A DNA stretch of 64,000 bases from Fodinicurvata sp. EGI_FJ10296 (lineage in GTDB: Bacteria; Pseudomonadota; Alphaproteobacteria; DSM-16000; Inquilinaceae): positions 186,001 to 250,000 of the forward strand of contig NZ_JBFCVL010000006.1 in assembly GCF_040712075.1 (NCBI RefSeq), in the 5' to 3' direction. Made by a program: the position numbers and the translations under genes. This document shows positions 12,132 to 61,118 of this stretch, one piece after another (position 1 is the first letter of the stretch; the number at the start of each line of letters is the position of its first letter). The notes beneath the pieces are model-generated. The model worked only from the letters and a program-made list of their open reading frames with translations. It did not search any database and was not told the origin of the DNA.

Positions 12132-12305
12132 TGCCGCGTTCTCAGGACCGGGTTCTCAGGGCCCGCTTCGGATTGTGCGGTGGGTGGGGAGACAAAAAAC
12201 CCCTTAAGCATGGACGCGGAGTGTGGCACAAAAGCCTCACGACCCAGCCGGGTGGCAATCGGGCCGGCCCGGGCGGAACGGCCAGAAAAATCGGGGTTCT
12301 TCAGG

Positions 12306-12905
12306 ATGGAAGCTTTCAAGCGGATTACAGGCATTGCAGCACCGATGCCGATGGACAATGTCGACACCGACATGATCATACCCAAGCAATTCCTGAAGAC
12401 AATCAAGCGTTCGGGACTCGCGCGCGGCCTGTTCTATGAATTGCGCTATGATGCCGACGGCAACAAGATCCCGTTCGTGCTCGACACGCCCCCCTATGAT
12501 CAGGCCAAGGTCCTCGTCGCCGGCGACAATTTCGGCTGCGGTTCATCGCGGGAACATGCGCCGTGGGCGATCAACGATTTCGGCCTTCGGTGCGTCATCG
12601 CCAAGAGCTTCGCCGACATCTTCTATAACAACTGCTTCAAGAACGGCATCCTGCCGATCGCGATCAAGGACGACGCCACCCTGGCCGCGTTGATGGGCGA
12701 CGCCGAACAGGGCGCATCGCTGACCGTGGATCTCGAATCGAAGACGATCACGCGCCCGGATGGCAGCACAATCGCCTTCGAGACCGACGACTTCCGCCGC
12801 CACTGCCTGTTGAACGGTCTTGACGATATCGGCCTGACGCTGAAGAACGCGCCGGAAATCGAGGCGTTCGAGGCAAAGCGCACCCAGGAACGGCCCTGGC
12901 TCTGA
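12306..12905 (+). CDS. leuD: 3-isopropylmalate dehydratase small subunit LeuD
   Basis: LeuD pairs with LeuC to isomerise 2-isopropylmalate to 3-isopropylmalate in leucine synthesis. The 199-residue protein starts [24 protein letters not shown] and contains [29 protein letters not shown] and [13 protein letters not shown], all LeuD hallmarks. The ATG at 12306 matches the family N-terminus; an in-frame ATG at 12180 would add a non-conserved 42-residue leader. leuB lies 79 bases downstream. leuC is not in the window, a common separation in alphaproteobacteria. Confidence 0.97.
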
Positions 12906-56884: not shown

Positions 56885-58177
56885 ATGACGAATGTGGTTG
56901 TCGTCGGCTCTCAATGGGGCGATGAGGGCAAAGGCAAGGTTGTGGACTGGCTGTCGAATCGCGCGGATGTGATCGTGCGCTTCCAGGGTGGCCATAATGC
57001 CGGCCATACGCTGACCATCGACGGCAAGGTATTCAAATTGAGCCTGCTGCCGTCAGGCGTCGTGCGCGGCGGCAAGCTGTCGGTGATCGGCAATGGCGTC
57101 GTCGTCGATCCGTGGGCGCTGATCGACGAGATCGAGCGGGTCCGTGCGCTCGGCGTCGATATCACGCCGGAATCCCTGATGCTCGCGGAGAACGCGACAT
57201 TAATCCTTCCCCTCCACAGCGCCGTCGACAAGGCGCGCGAGGTGGCACGGGGTGAGAACAAGATCGGCACGACCGGCCGTGGTATCGGCCCGGCCTATGA
57301 GGACAAGATCGCCCGCCGGGCGATCCGCGTCTGCGATCTCGAAGACGAGGGCATCCTAGCCCAGAAGATCGACGATTTGCTGCTCCACCACAACGCCCTG
57401 CTGCGCGGTCTCGGTGCCCCGGAGTTCAAGGCCGACGAACTGGTTGCGCAACTCAGGGCGATCGCGCCGAAGGTCCTGCCTTATACCGGCGTCGTCTGGC
57501 GCACGCTGGATGCCGCCCGCCAGGAGGGCAAGCGGATCCTCTGGGAGGGTGCGCAGGGCGCCTTGCTCGACGTCGACCATGGGACGTACCCGTTCGTGAC
57601 TTCCAGCAATACCGTTGCCGGGCAGGCCGCGACGGGATCCGGCAGCGCACCCGGCGCGTTGGGCCGTGTTCTGGGCATCACCAAGGCCTACACGACCCGC
57701 GTAGGCTCGGGGCCGTTTCCAACGGAACTGGACGACGATATCGGGCAGCGCCTGGGGGAACGGGGGCGCGAATTCGGGACCGTTACAGGCCGGGCACGGC
57801 GATGCGGCTGGTTCGATGCCGTTCTCGTCCGTCAGGCCGTCAAGACTGGCGGTATCACCGGCATCGCTCTGACCAAACTGGATGTCCTCGACGGCTTCGA
57901 ACATCTCAGAATCTGCGTCGGCTACCGGTGGCGGGGCCGCGATCTCGATCATCTGCCGGCTTCTCAGGTGGCGCAGGCCGAGGTCGAGCCGGTTTACGAG
58001 ACCCTTCCCGGATGGACCGACAGCACCCAGGGCGCCCGGAGCTGGGCGGAATTGCCGGCCAATGCGATCAAATACATCGTCAGGATCGAGGAGCTGATTC
58101 AAACGCGCGTCATCCTGCTGTCCACAAGCCCGGAGCGGGACGACACGATCGTTACCGCCGATCCATTCGGCGATTGA
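56885..58177 (+). CDS. purA: Adenylosuccinate synthase PurA
   Basis: PurA condenses IMP and aspartate using GTP in the first committed step to AMP. The 430-residue protein starts [23 protein letters not shown] (P-loop with catalytic Asp) and has [11 protein letters not shown] (catalytic His), [44 protein letters not shown] and [14 protein letters not shown]. The ATG at 56885 has GGAAAG ahead; an in-frame ATG at 56852 is not family-like. It lies 83 bases after hisZ. Confidence 0.97.
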
Positions 58178-58340
58178 GGGCTACGGACCGCTTAAATCAA
58201 TGACGCCGGCAGATATCCGGCCGCGACCTGTCTGATCCGGGTTAACGGTTCGTTTGGCTTATGGCGCTAGCGTGTCGGTGAGACTGCGGGGCAACCCGCG
58301 AGTGTCAACCATTCTCGCCGATACGGGACGCGCAACTGAC

Positions 58341-60476
58341 ATGGCCACCGACGATACGCTTTTGCCCGATCAGGCCACGGAGACCGGCAATGGCGCCGCA
58401 CTGGATGGTGACGGCGTATCGGGTCAGGGCGGACAACAGGGACCGGCGGGTGGCGCGCCATCGGCCGCGTCGCTGAAAGTCCGGCTGCACAATCGTTTCG
58501 AAATCGATGCCGAAAGCCCCTTGCCGGACCTCGATTCGCACACCGCGTCGGCCTATGCGGCACGGGGGCGGGAAGAAGCGGGCCGCAGTCTGTTCAGCCT
58601 CGTGCTCGACCCGCTGCGGCCGAATCGCCTGGATGTCATGGGGTCGCTCCGGGGCATCGACCAGGTATCCATCCTGCGCATGATCGAATTCGGCGTCGTT
58701 CCGTGGGGGCGCGACGAAACCGAGCGGTTGGTGGTCATTTTCGAACAGCCCAACGGCCCCCGTCTGGCGCGGACGATCAACGATCGGCGGGAGCCGATGT
58801 CGGAAGATCAGATCGCTCGCAAAATACTGGTCCCGATGGTCGCGGCAATGCGCGAGCTTCGGGTTCGGCGTGTGTTTCACGGCTCTATCAATCCGACGAA
58901 CCTGTTCATGAACGACGGCGGTGGCGTGCAGCTGGGCGAATGCGTCAGTTGTCTTCCGGGGGCGATGCAGCCGACCGTCTTCGAACCGCTGGAACGGGGC
59001 ATGGCAATGCCCAGTGGCCGCGGTACCGGCGTATTGGAGGACGATCTCTACGCGCTCGGCGTTACCTGTGTTTTCCTGGCGCTCGGCTACAATCCTGTCG
59101 CTCATCTGTCCGACGAGGAAATCACCCTTCAGAAAATGGAAAAGGGCACTTTCCAGCTTCTGGCCGGCGATGTGAAATTGCCGGCTGCGCTGATAGAGCC
59201 GGTGCGCGGTCTGCTCATCGATGACAGCGGTCAGCGCTGGTCGCTTGACGATCTCGACCTTTGGGCGAGCGGCCGGCGCCTTTCGCCAAAGCAGGCGCAG
59301 CCGCCGAAACGGGCGGTCCGGCCTATCGATTTCAGTGGTGGTCAGCACTGGACCGCCCGATCGCTTGCCCATGCCATGCGCAAACAGACGGCCGAGGCCA
59401 ATGGCGTCATTGAAAGCGGCGGGCTGGAACACTGGCTCAATCGCAGCCTTGATGACGAGGCGACGCTGAAGCGGGTGCTGGAGGCCATGCGAACGGCGGG
59501 TATGGGGCGCGGCGGCTCAATCGAGGAACGCCGTGTCGCCCGCGTGATCATGGCGCTCGATCCAAAAGGACCCGTTCGCTACAAGGGCGTCGCGGTGATG
59601 CCCGACGGGCTCGGCGGCGCATTGGCCGAGGCGCTGGGCACCGGCCGGTCGACCCAGGAACTGGCCGAAATCGTGTCGGCTCAACTCCCCATGTTCTGGG
59701 TCAATGTTCAAAGCACGTTCCGGCCGGAATTCGTTCCTCTGGCGAAGAAATTCGACCAGATGCGCGGCTATCTGGAGAATACCGGCATCGGCTTTGGAAT
59801 TGAGCGGTGCCTGTATGAACTGAACCAATCGCTACCCTGCCAAAGCTCCATCCTTCAGGGGCACTATGTCACCGAACTCGATGCATTGCTGACGGCCCTG
59901 GAATCCATGGCGGAGAAGGGAAAGCACGGCAGCGGCCAGCAGGGGGCGGGACCGCAGGAACCCGTGGACCGTCATGTCATGGCTTTCATGCTTTCCCGCC
60001 ACGGCGGGCTCGATGACAGACTCGTGCAGAAGCTGAATCGCGACCGAGAGGACCCTGCCCGGCGTATCGCCATTCTCGACATCTTCCTGGAACTGCAGAA
60101 GCAGGCGCGTATCAAGAGCGTGCCTAACCTGTGCGTGTGGCTCGCGGCCCTGATCGAACCGGCGGTGGCGCTCTACCATAGCCGAACCCTGCGAACCCGA
60201 ATGACAGAGGAACTCGCGGCGCAGGCGAAGACCGGTATGGTGAGAAACCTCTATTCATTGATCCACAATGGCGATCTTGCCCGTCGCGACGCCGCCGGGT
60301 TCGACATGGCCAGACGCGAATTCGAGTACACCAACCGGGGAATCGCCCAGCGCCGAAAAGACATTCAGGACAGTCCGGCCGTCAACGGCGAACTTGGCCG
60401 CCAGATCGCGGCCGTCGCCGCCGGTGTCATGTCGATGGTGCTGTTGGTTGGGATCATACTGGTTCAGGCCGTTTAG
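58341..60476 (+). CDS. Membrane-anchored pseudokinase-like protein
   Basis: A 711-residue protein with a disordered Gly-rich N-terminus (1-45), a protein-kinase-like domain (about 45-315), an uncharacterised helical region (325-680) and a C-terminal transmembrane helix (about 689-709, tail-anchor-like). In the kinase-like part, HRDxKPxN is replaced by HGSINPTNLF (180-189) and DFG by LGECV, so both catalytic aspartates are lost. No VAxK lysine or glycine loop is obvious. Structural residues remain, notably VLEDDLYALGV (231-241) and the Arg in GQRWSLDDL. This predicts a scaffold or sensor and not an active kinase. The ATG at 58341 has only a weak GGGACG. The next gene encodes a small membrane protein. 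Confidence 0.7.
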   Translation: MATDDTLLPDQATETGNGAALDGDGVSGQGGQQGPAGGAPSAASLKVRLHNRFEIDAESPLPDLDSHTASAYAARGREEAGRSLFSLVLDPLRPNRLDVMGSLRGIDQVSILRMIEFGVVPWGRDETERLVVIFEQPNGPRLARTINDRREPMSEDQIARKILVPMVAAMRELRVRRVFHGSINPTNLFMNDGGGVQLGECVSCLPGAMQPTVFEPLERGMAMPSGRGTGVLEDDLYALGVTCVFLALGYNPVAHLSDEEITLQKMEKGTFQLLAGDVKLPAALIEPVRGLLIDDSGQRWSLDDLDLWASGRRLSPKQAQPPKRAVRPIDFSGGQHWTARSLAHAMRKQTAEANGVIESGGLEHWLNRSLDDEATLKRVLEAMRTAGMGRGGSIEERRVARVIMALDPKGPVRYKGVAVMPDGLGGALAEALGTGRSTQELAEIVSAQLPMFWVNVQSTFRPEFVPLAKKFDQMRGYLENTGIGFGIERCLYELNQSLPCQSSILQGHYVTELDALLTALESMAEKGKHGSGQQGAGPQEPVDRHVMAFMLSRHGGLDDRLVQKLNRDREDPARRIAILDIFLELQKQARIKSVPNLCVWLAALIEPAVALYHSRTLRTRMTEELAAQAKTGMVRNLYSLIHNGDLARRDAAGFDMARREFEYTNRGIAQRRKDIQDSPAVNGELGRQIAAVAAGVMSMVLLVGIILVQAV

Positions 60477-60575
60477 GATGGCGGGCGGGCCGGCCCTTCC
60501 CGTCGATGAAGCCACTGGCGAGCCGTCCGACTCCTGTCAATCGGCACGCACGAATGGAAATGGAAAGTACGCTCG

Positions 60576-61118
60576 ATGACGACGGTCTCGAAACAGGGCG
60601 GCCCCAAGTCCGGCACCGCGCCCTTGGTATCCCGTCAGGGTAAGGCCCGGAGGCGACCGGCGACCGGCTGGAAGTTGGGGATGCTCATCGGTATCTGCGC
60701 GCTTCCTTTTGCATTGCTTGCCTTGCCGACGACCCTGCTGTTCGCGGTGGGAATGGCGCCGACGATCGTGGCCCTTATCGTCGATCGGGACCCGAACAAG
60801 TTTGCGCCGATCACGGTCGGGTCGCTGAACTTCTGCGGCGTGATGTCGACGGCCATACCGCTGTGGGGGGGTACCCATTCGCTCGATGGCGTTGCATCGG
60901 TGCTGGCGGATCCCTTTACATGGCTCGTCATGTATGCTGCGGCTGCGCTCGGGTGGCTGCTCTATTTTTCGGTTCCGCCTGCGGTGAGCACGTTCATGGC
61001 GATGCGCTATCAGGCAGAGATCGACGAAATGACCGCGCGGCAGGCCGAACTCAAGGAGGAATGGGGAGACGATGTCGCCGACGCTTCGGGGCATGCGGAT
61101 GCGGCGGCTGCAGCCTGA
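60576..61118 (+). CDS. Small multi-pass membrane protein paired with the pseudokinase
   Basis: A 180-residue protein I do not recognise. A basic Ser/Gly/Lys N-terminus (residues 1-32) is followed by two close helices (about 33-52 and 54-72, LGMLIGICALPFALLALPTTL and LFAVGMAPTIVALIVD), then a polar segment with DRDPNKFAPITVGSLNFCG. A further helix lies near 117-138 (WLVMYAAAALGWLLYFSVPP), then a charged cytoplasmic-type helix (YQAEIDEMTARQAELKEEWGDDV). GGAAAG precedes the ATG. It lies 99 bases after the pseudokinase-like gene on the same strand, so the two membrane proteins may interact. Confidence 0.75.
   Translation: MTTVSKQGGPKSGTAPLVSRQGKARRRPATGWKLGMLIGICALPFALLALPTTLLFAVGMAPTIVALIVDRDPNKFAPITVGSLNFCGVMSTAIPLWGGTHSLDGVASVLADPFTWLVMYAAAALGWLLYFSVPPAVSTFMAMRYQAEIDEMTARQAELKEEWGDDVADASGHADAAAAA

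Follow-up and report, generated by a model that had tools for sequence, protein, structure and literature searches.

The window, a stretch of 64,000 nucleotides from Fodinicurvata sp. EGI_FJ10296, carries a pair of neighboring genes on the forward strand whose products are a membrane-anchored pseudokinase and a small multi-pass membrane protein, called the partner here. Both genes were found where the original prediction had placed them, and the coordinates of the pair and of the related features are displayed in Table 1.

Table 1. Features of the pseudokinase-partner locus in the window
Feature	Position	Strand	Basis
purA (adenylosuccinate synthase), upstream neighbor, probably outside the system	56888..58177	+	ORF, homology, neighbor survey
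CtrA-like box GTTAACGGTTCGTTTGGC, 83-100 bp ahead of the ATG of the pseudokinase	58241..58258	+	class-wide enrichment, profile rank
Membrane-anchored pseudokinase, 711 aa	58341..60476	+	ORF, homology, model
Pseudokinase domain, residues 44-312	58470..59276	+	predicted structure, fold match, profile register, column counts
HGSINPTN motif, pseudokinase residues 180-187	58878-58901	+	
Glu200 codon, DFG-Asp position of the pseudokinase	58938-58940	+	
Conserved helical domain, residues about 313-640, no recognized family	59277..60260	+	model and fold searches
Single C-terminal transmembrane helix, residues 689-707	60405..60461	+	hydropathy and model
Partner, small multi-pass membrane protein, 180 aa	60576..61118	+	ORF, model, locus survey

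The first protein had been described as a kinase fold with a large helical domain and one C-terminal transmembrane (TM) helix, and the model, the fold match, and the hydropathy profile bear this out. The AlphaFold model, built from 43 relatives, reached a pLDDT of 90.1 and a pTM of 0.83. Its residues 44-312 form a bilobal protein kinase fold, which was aligned by VIA-align over 252 residues with a Z of 24.2 and an rmsd of 2.6 (best chain 5o21). Pfam Pkinase was matched by 34 of the 43 relatives (E 0.1 or better) and was the top, sub-threshold, Pfam match of the window protein. Beyond the kinase region, no domains were found in Pfam or NCBIfam scans of the family. The model is mostly helical from about residue 313 to 640, where the fold search gave weak armadillo/HEAT matches at most (best E 0.011), and it continues into a long helix (644-710), at the end of which lies the one strongly hydrophobic stretch of the hydropathy profile. 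This C-terminal helix would hold the pseudokinase to the inner membrane on its cytoplasmic side. The dN/dS values of about 0.08-0.13 indicate purifying selection.

Regarding the partner, the expected small multi-pass protein was modeled as such, with a pLDDT of 87. The model is helical, with a 51-residue helix at residues 113-163, and the long C-terminal helix carries a conserved EEWG stretch. Its dN/dS lies between 0.03 and 0.26, again purifying selection. Searches with the partner gave no PDB match with E 0.001 or better and, in Pfam, no family that recurred consistently.

Catalytic residues and comparison with described pseudokinases

The residue register was set by aligning a profile of the 43 relatives with solved kinases, and the columns were then counted. 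The Lys of the VAIK motif in beta3 is replaced by Val88 in the window protein, and this column holds Val or Ile in 36 of the 43 relatives and Lys in one, within a family consensus of FAL-V/I-C. The HRD Asp is replaced by Ser182 (Asp in 1/43) and the catalytic-loop Lys by Asn184, a column with Arg in 29 of the 43. Over the family, the HRD columns read His in 39 and Arg or Gly in 41, followed by Ala, Ser or another residue. On the other hand, the catalytic-loop Asn187 is kept in 42/43 relatives and the alpha-F Asp235 in all 43. A single relative (L033) has an Asp at the HRD position, in the motif HGDVRPTN, and it is still without the beta3 Lys.

The original prediction held that both catalytic aspartates were lost, with LGE in place of DFG. 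The loss of the HRD Asp was confirmed, but the LGE reading proved to be off by one residue. Glu200 stands where the DFG Asp would be, and the column is acidic in 38 of the 43 relatives (Glu in 21, Asp in 17), so that an acidic residue is retained at the metal site and the loss holds for one of the two positions as stated. Since the VAIK Lys and the HRD Asp are both lost, the protein is, judging by its residues, a pseudokinase that is catalytically dead by the canonical mechanism, although its pocket is incompletely erased: the retention of Asn187 and of an acidic residue 200 leaves room for the binding of a nucleotide or a metal.

In NCBI, the Azospirillum orthologues of the two genes are annotated as "serine/threonine protein kinase" and "hypothetical protein", and the first name implies an active enzyme in which other residues have taken over catalysis. 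The kinase fold and the overall motifs are compatible with this, and some unusual kinases do use other residues. However, the beta3 Lys, the HRD Asp, and the catalytic-loop Lys are missing in nearly all of the 43 relatives, which makes an active enzyme highly improbable. WNK chains top the fold-match ranking of the pseudokinase. WNK kinases have a Cys at the beta3 Lys position, with the Lys moved to beta2. A catalytic rescue of this type was considered and rejected, because the family has Val or Ile, not Cys, at the Lys position, and its common Cys lies one residue later.

Seven families of bacterial pseudokinases have been described, with unknown functions (PMC12599244). In the GLW pseudokinases (O'Boyle et al. 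2025, PMC12599244), GLW replaces HRD and LLLL/W is found at beta3, whereas the window family shows H-R/G-A/S and A-L-V/I-C at these sites and has a helical domain of about 330 residues between the kinase and the TM helix. The DLHK pseudokinases are similar to the window family in keeping the Asn at the end of the loop, in the common catalytic-loop Arg, and in the loss of the beta3 Lys (PMC12599244), but they keep the HRD Asp and have no TM helices, while the window family has lost that Asp and has a TM helix. CP1 pseudokinases lack a TM helix, unlike the window family, and carry a fused COG3899 domain; additional domains of the window family were looked for in Pfam and NCBIfam, with the outcome given above. 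ActPs1-3 and DYD pseudokinases were described from actinobacteria and firmicutes, with residue patterns specific to each family (PMC12599244).

The best NCBIfam matches were LanL, the class IV lanthionine synthetase, and the MAD6 kinases (38 and 34 of the 43 members), both limited to the kinase region, with LanL reaching 37.7 bits against a cut-off of 650. The Ser/Thr kinases of the PknB/StkP type share the kinase fold and the single TM helix, but the window protein is dead, has its anchor at the very C-terminus and no extracellular sensor part, and is accompanied by a different partner. A literature search that lay mostly outside subscription papers found no flagellar or alphaproteobacterial pseudokinase, nor the pair. 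We take the window family to be undescribed, on a comparison that covered the described features of GLW, DLHK, and CP1. Of the undescribed signaling system proposed originally, the evidence supports a pseudokinase anchored in the membrane, a conserved membrane partner, and a lack of described relatives, with signaling as a possible role.

Conservation of the pair and its neighbors

Of 96 class genomes sampled around that of the window, 37 contained pseudokinase relatives; a 38th match (E 3e-4) was generic and is left out of this count. A lack of conservation of the pair had been named beforehand as refuting, but the partner was present in all 37 of these genomes. Moreover, 93 of 98 complete pseudokinase loci, where the gene calling is approximate, have it immediately after the pseudokinase and in the same orientation. 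The adjacency of the two genes is far from chance. Without the pseudokinase, the partner turned up in only two other genomes, which are fragmented and carry FlgI, and as a single weak match in G020.

Some genomes carry additional copies. One of them (G030) has four partner copies (including G030:C1:1773317, 1300422, and 2762082) and one pseudokinase, indicating that the partner has paralogues of its own. The whole pair is duplicated in tandem at two loci, L089 (G147:C2) and L094 (G329:C5), and the genome of the former has a third pair that adjoins purA. Second pseudokinase copies at L081 and L124 adjoin genes for TPR-like proteins, and at L081 also aminotransferase-like genes (all named by eye); from this gene content, these surroundings may be loci for the glycosylation of flagellin or of the surface.

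The position beside purA, pointed out originally, turned out to be common but not defining. In Azospirillum thermophilum NZ_CP029356, the gene beside the orthologue is annotated as adenylosuccinate synthase. The gene purA lies directly upstream of the pseudokinase in 52 loci. Since it is absent from that position in 45 loci, it is best seen as an old neighbor and not as a defining member. In the loci without purA, no recurrent neighbor was noticed on inspection by eye. An rpoH-like sigma factor gene is found just downstream of the pair, and convergent with it, in five loci from distant families (L073, L088, L094, L119, and L122), and in A. thermophilum (L137) the convergent gene downstream of the pair is annotated as rpoH.

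The frequent vicinity of purA, together with the conservation of Asn187 (42/43) and of the acidic residue 200 (38/43), could point to a nucleotide sensor, whose pocket would bind a purine nucleotide or a metal and tune swimming or purine metabolism. This is unlikely, since in 36 of the 43 relatives Val or Ile replaces the Lys that binds the phosphates of ATP, 45 loci are away from purA, and conserved neighbors can be inert.

Co-occurrence with flagellar genes and a CtrA-like promoter box

The strongest clue to function is a flagellar link, seen in the distribution over genomes and in a CtrA-like box, and it was absent from the original prediction. In a divergent locus (L055), the pseudokinase gene lies 111 bp after flgI-flgJ-flgN-flgK-flgL, and this flagellar neighborhood led to a test of the distribution of the pseudokinase against flagellar genes. 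In another locus (L089), two tandem pairs are placed immediately upstream of flhA-flbD. At larger distances, flgF, flgG, flgA, and flgH are about 5 kb from the pair in L090, and fliE and flgC about 8 kb from it in L105. Immediate linkage to flagellar genes amounts to 2 cases among about 35 independent non-purA loci, which is within chance, and hence it is taken as illustrative only.

The distribution was studied in 387 genomes of the class that were at least 90% complete, with the pseudokinase called at E below 1e-20. FlgI was present in 122 of the 130 pseudokinase-bearing genomes and in 108 of the 257 without the pseudokinase (Fisher p 6e-26, with relatedness ignored). Closely related genomes are not independent, so relatedness was handled by sampling one genome per family (n=80); the pseudokinase versus FlgI table then read 25/3/20/32 (p 8e-6), and a control family, PhaC, gave 18/10/29/23 in the same sampling (p 0.31), that is, no association. 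Eight genomes were positive for the pseudokinase and negative for FlgI. Flagellin was found in six of them, so that FlgI or flagellin is present in 128 of the 130. This flagellin rescue search covered the pseudokinase-positive genomes only, and the FlgI-only figures are for this reason the fair test. The remaining two, G408 and G410, have only a single or fragmentary hook/rod-domain match, against six in their flagellated relative G283, a pattern that fits a recent loss of flagella. FlhF was tried as a marker of flagellum type and discarded, as TIGR03499 matches related GTPases in 95/96 genomes and in all controls.

At a finer scale, within the family of the window, neither the pseudokinase nor FlgI is present in the genome G006 or in five of six genomes from another genus, g3, and the sixth (G013) has FlgI and no pseudokinase. 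In the order of Azospirillum, the pseudokinase is present in 82/82 genomes and FlgI in 80/82. The order-level contrast around G071 comprises three genomes only. About half of the flagellated genomes are without the pseudokinase, so the gene would be accessory or lineage-specific and not a universal flagellar part.

Uniformly positive orders such as that of Azospirillum (82/82) are what would be expected if the gene simply dated back to the ancestors of orders that are flagellated by coincidence, the flagellar link being a phylogenetic artefact. This explanation is quite unlikely: the signal survives the sampling of one genome per family, where PhaC shows none, joint absences occur within families (e.g., f1 and f56), and the promoter evidence is independent of the distribution.

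Concerning the promoter, the CtrA site has been defined as TTAA-N7-TTAAC (PMC3692519), and flagellar genes are under CtrA in every order studied, including the early-branching Rhodospirillales (PMC8116508). The upstream regions were searched for TTAAC-N6-TTAAC with at most 2 mismatches, a search seeded with the CtrA consensus. Of 85 regions upstream of the pseudokinase, 33 contained the pattern, whereas 40 shuffles gave an expectation of 8.1 and a maximum of 13. It was present in 4/80 regions downstream of the partner and in 4/86 pseudokinase 3' ends. The strictest control was made with gene-upstream intergenic regions of the same loci, in which the box preceded the pseudokinase in 25/75 cases (33%) and other genes in 55/562 (10%; OR 4.6, p 3.5e-7). 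For sigma-54 sites upstream of the pseudokinase, the main pattern was at chance level.

The box in the window has three mismatches to the strict pattern and was picked up by a profile, not by the fixed pattern. This CtrA-like profile was trained without the family of the window and scored on the window and seven further stretches of the same genome. The upstream region of the pseudokinase ranked first of 112, and the next-best ranks include the regions upstream of fliF, a cheY-like gene, fliC, and fliQ and a region by flgB. With the flagellar genes named by eye from sequence, 5 of 17 flagellar upstream regions were above the threshold versus 7 of 94 others (p 0.019; rank test p 0.22), a modest enrichment that shows with the threshold only. 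Within the window, the second-best profile match lies at 12191-12208, upstream of a leuD-like gene (12306-12905) on the opposite strand. From these sequence patterns, the pseudokinase is probably CtrA-regulated.

Co-distribution by itself fits flagella, chemotaxis or another CtrA-controlled trait alike. CtrA regulons include non-flagellar genes (PMC8116508, PMC12363192), and in combination with the box this could indicate that the pair is a non-flagellar envelope, polarity or cell-cycle factor, which follows the full CtrA programme of flagellated lineages. This is considered rather unlikely, given that flagellar genes are present in nearly all pseudokinase genomes, that nearly all FlgI-less genomes lack the pseudokinase, and that two pseudokinase loci are inside flagellar operons.

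Proposed role of the pair

The near-confinement of the pair to flagellated Alphaproteobacteria suggests that it belongs, as an undescribed element, to the machinery of swimming or to its control. We consider it somewhat probable that the two proteins form a membrane complex that serves the flagellum in many members of the class, with the dead kinase acting as a scaffold or switch together with its partner, under a CtrA-type promoter. The flagellar link is one of association, and we infer the mechanism as follows. The pair would be transcribed from its own promoter under the CtrA-type box, together with flagellar genes. Once anchored by its single C-terminal helix, the pseudokinase would form a physical complex with the multi-pass partner, and the kinase fold could serve as a scaffold or a ligand-responsive switch instead of an enzyme. 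The complex would then build, place or regulate the flagellum, acting at the flagellar base.

A structural role of this kind has a possible analogy in EssB/YukC, the membrane pseudokinase of the type VIIb secretion system (PMC12599244). Compared by description only, EssB/YukC and the window family share a non-catalytic kinase fold and a membrane anchor, and the former is a structural part of a machine (PMC12599244). However, EssB/YukC belongs to Gram-positive secretion, whereas the window family is anchored at the C-terminus, contains a large additional helical domain, and comes with a multi-pass partner and a flagellar distribution. By this analogy, the pair could be a widespread inner-membrane component of the flagellum in which the dead kinase and its partner scaffold or gate the export apparatus or the motor; we regard this more specific assignment as tentative.

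Few bacterial machines have been studied as thoroughly as the flagellum. If the flagellar link is true, a two-gene module that tracks roughly half of the flagellated Alphaproteobacteria would be a missing flagellar part or regulator, and it would provide a testable function for a family of bacterial pseudokinases.
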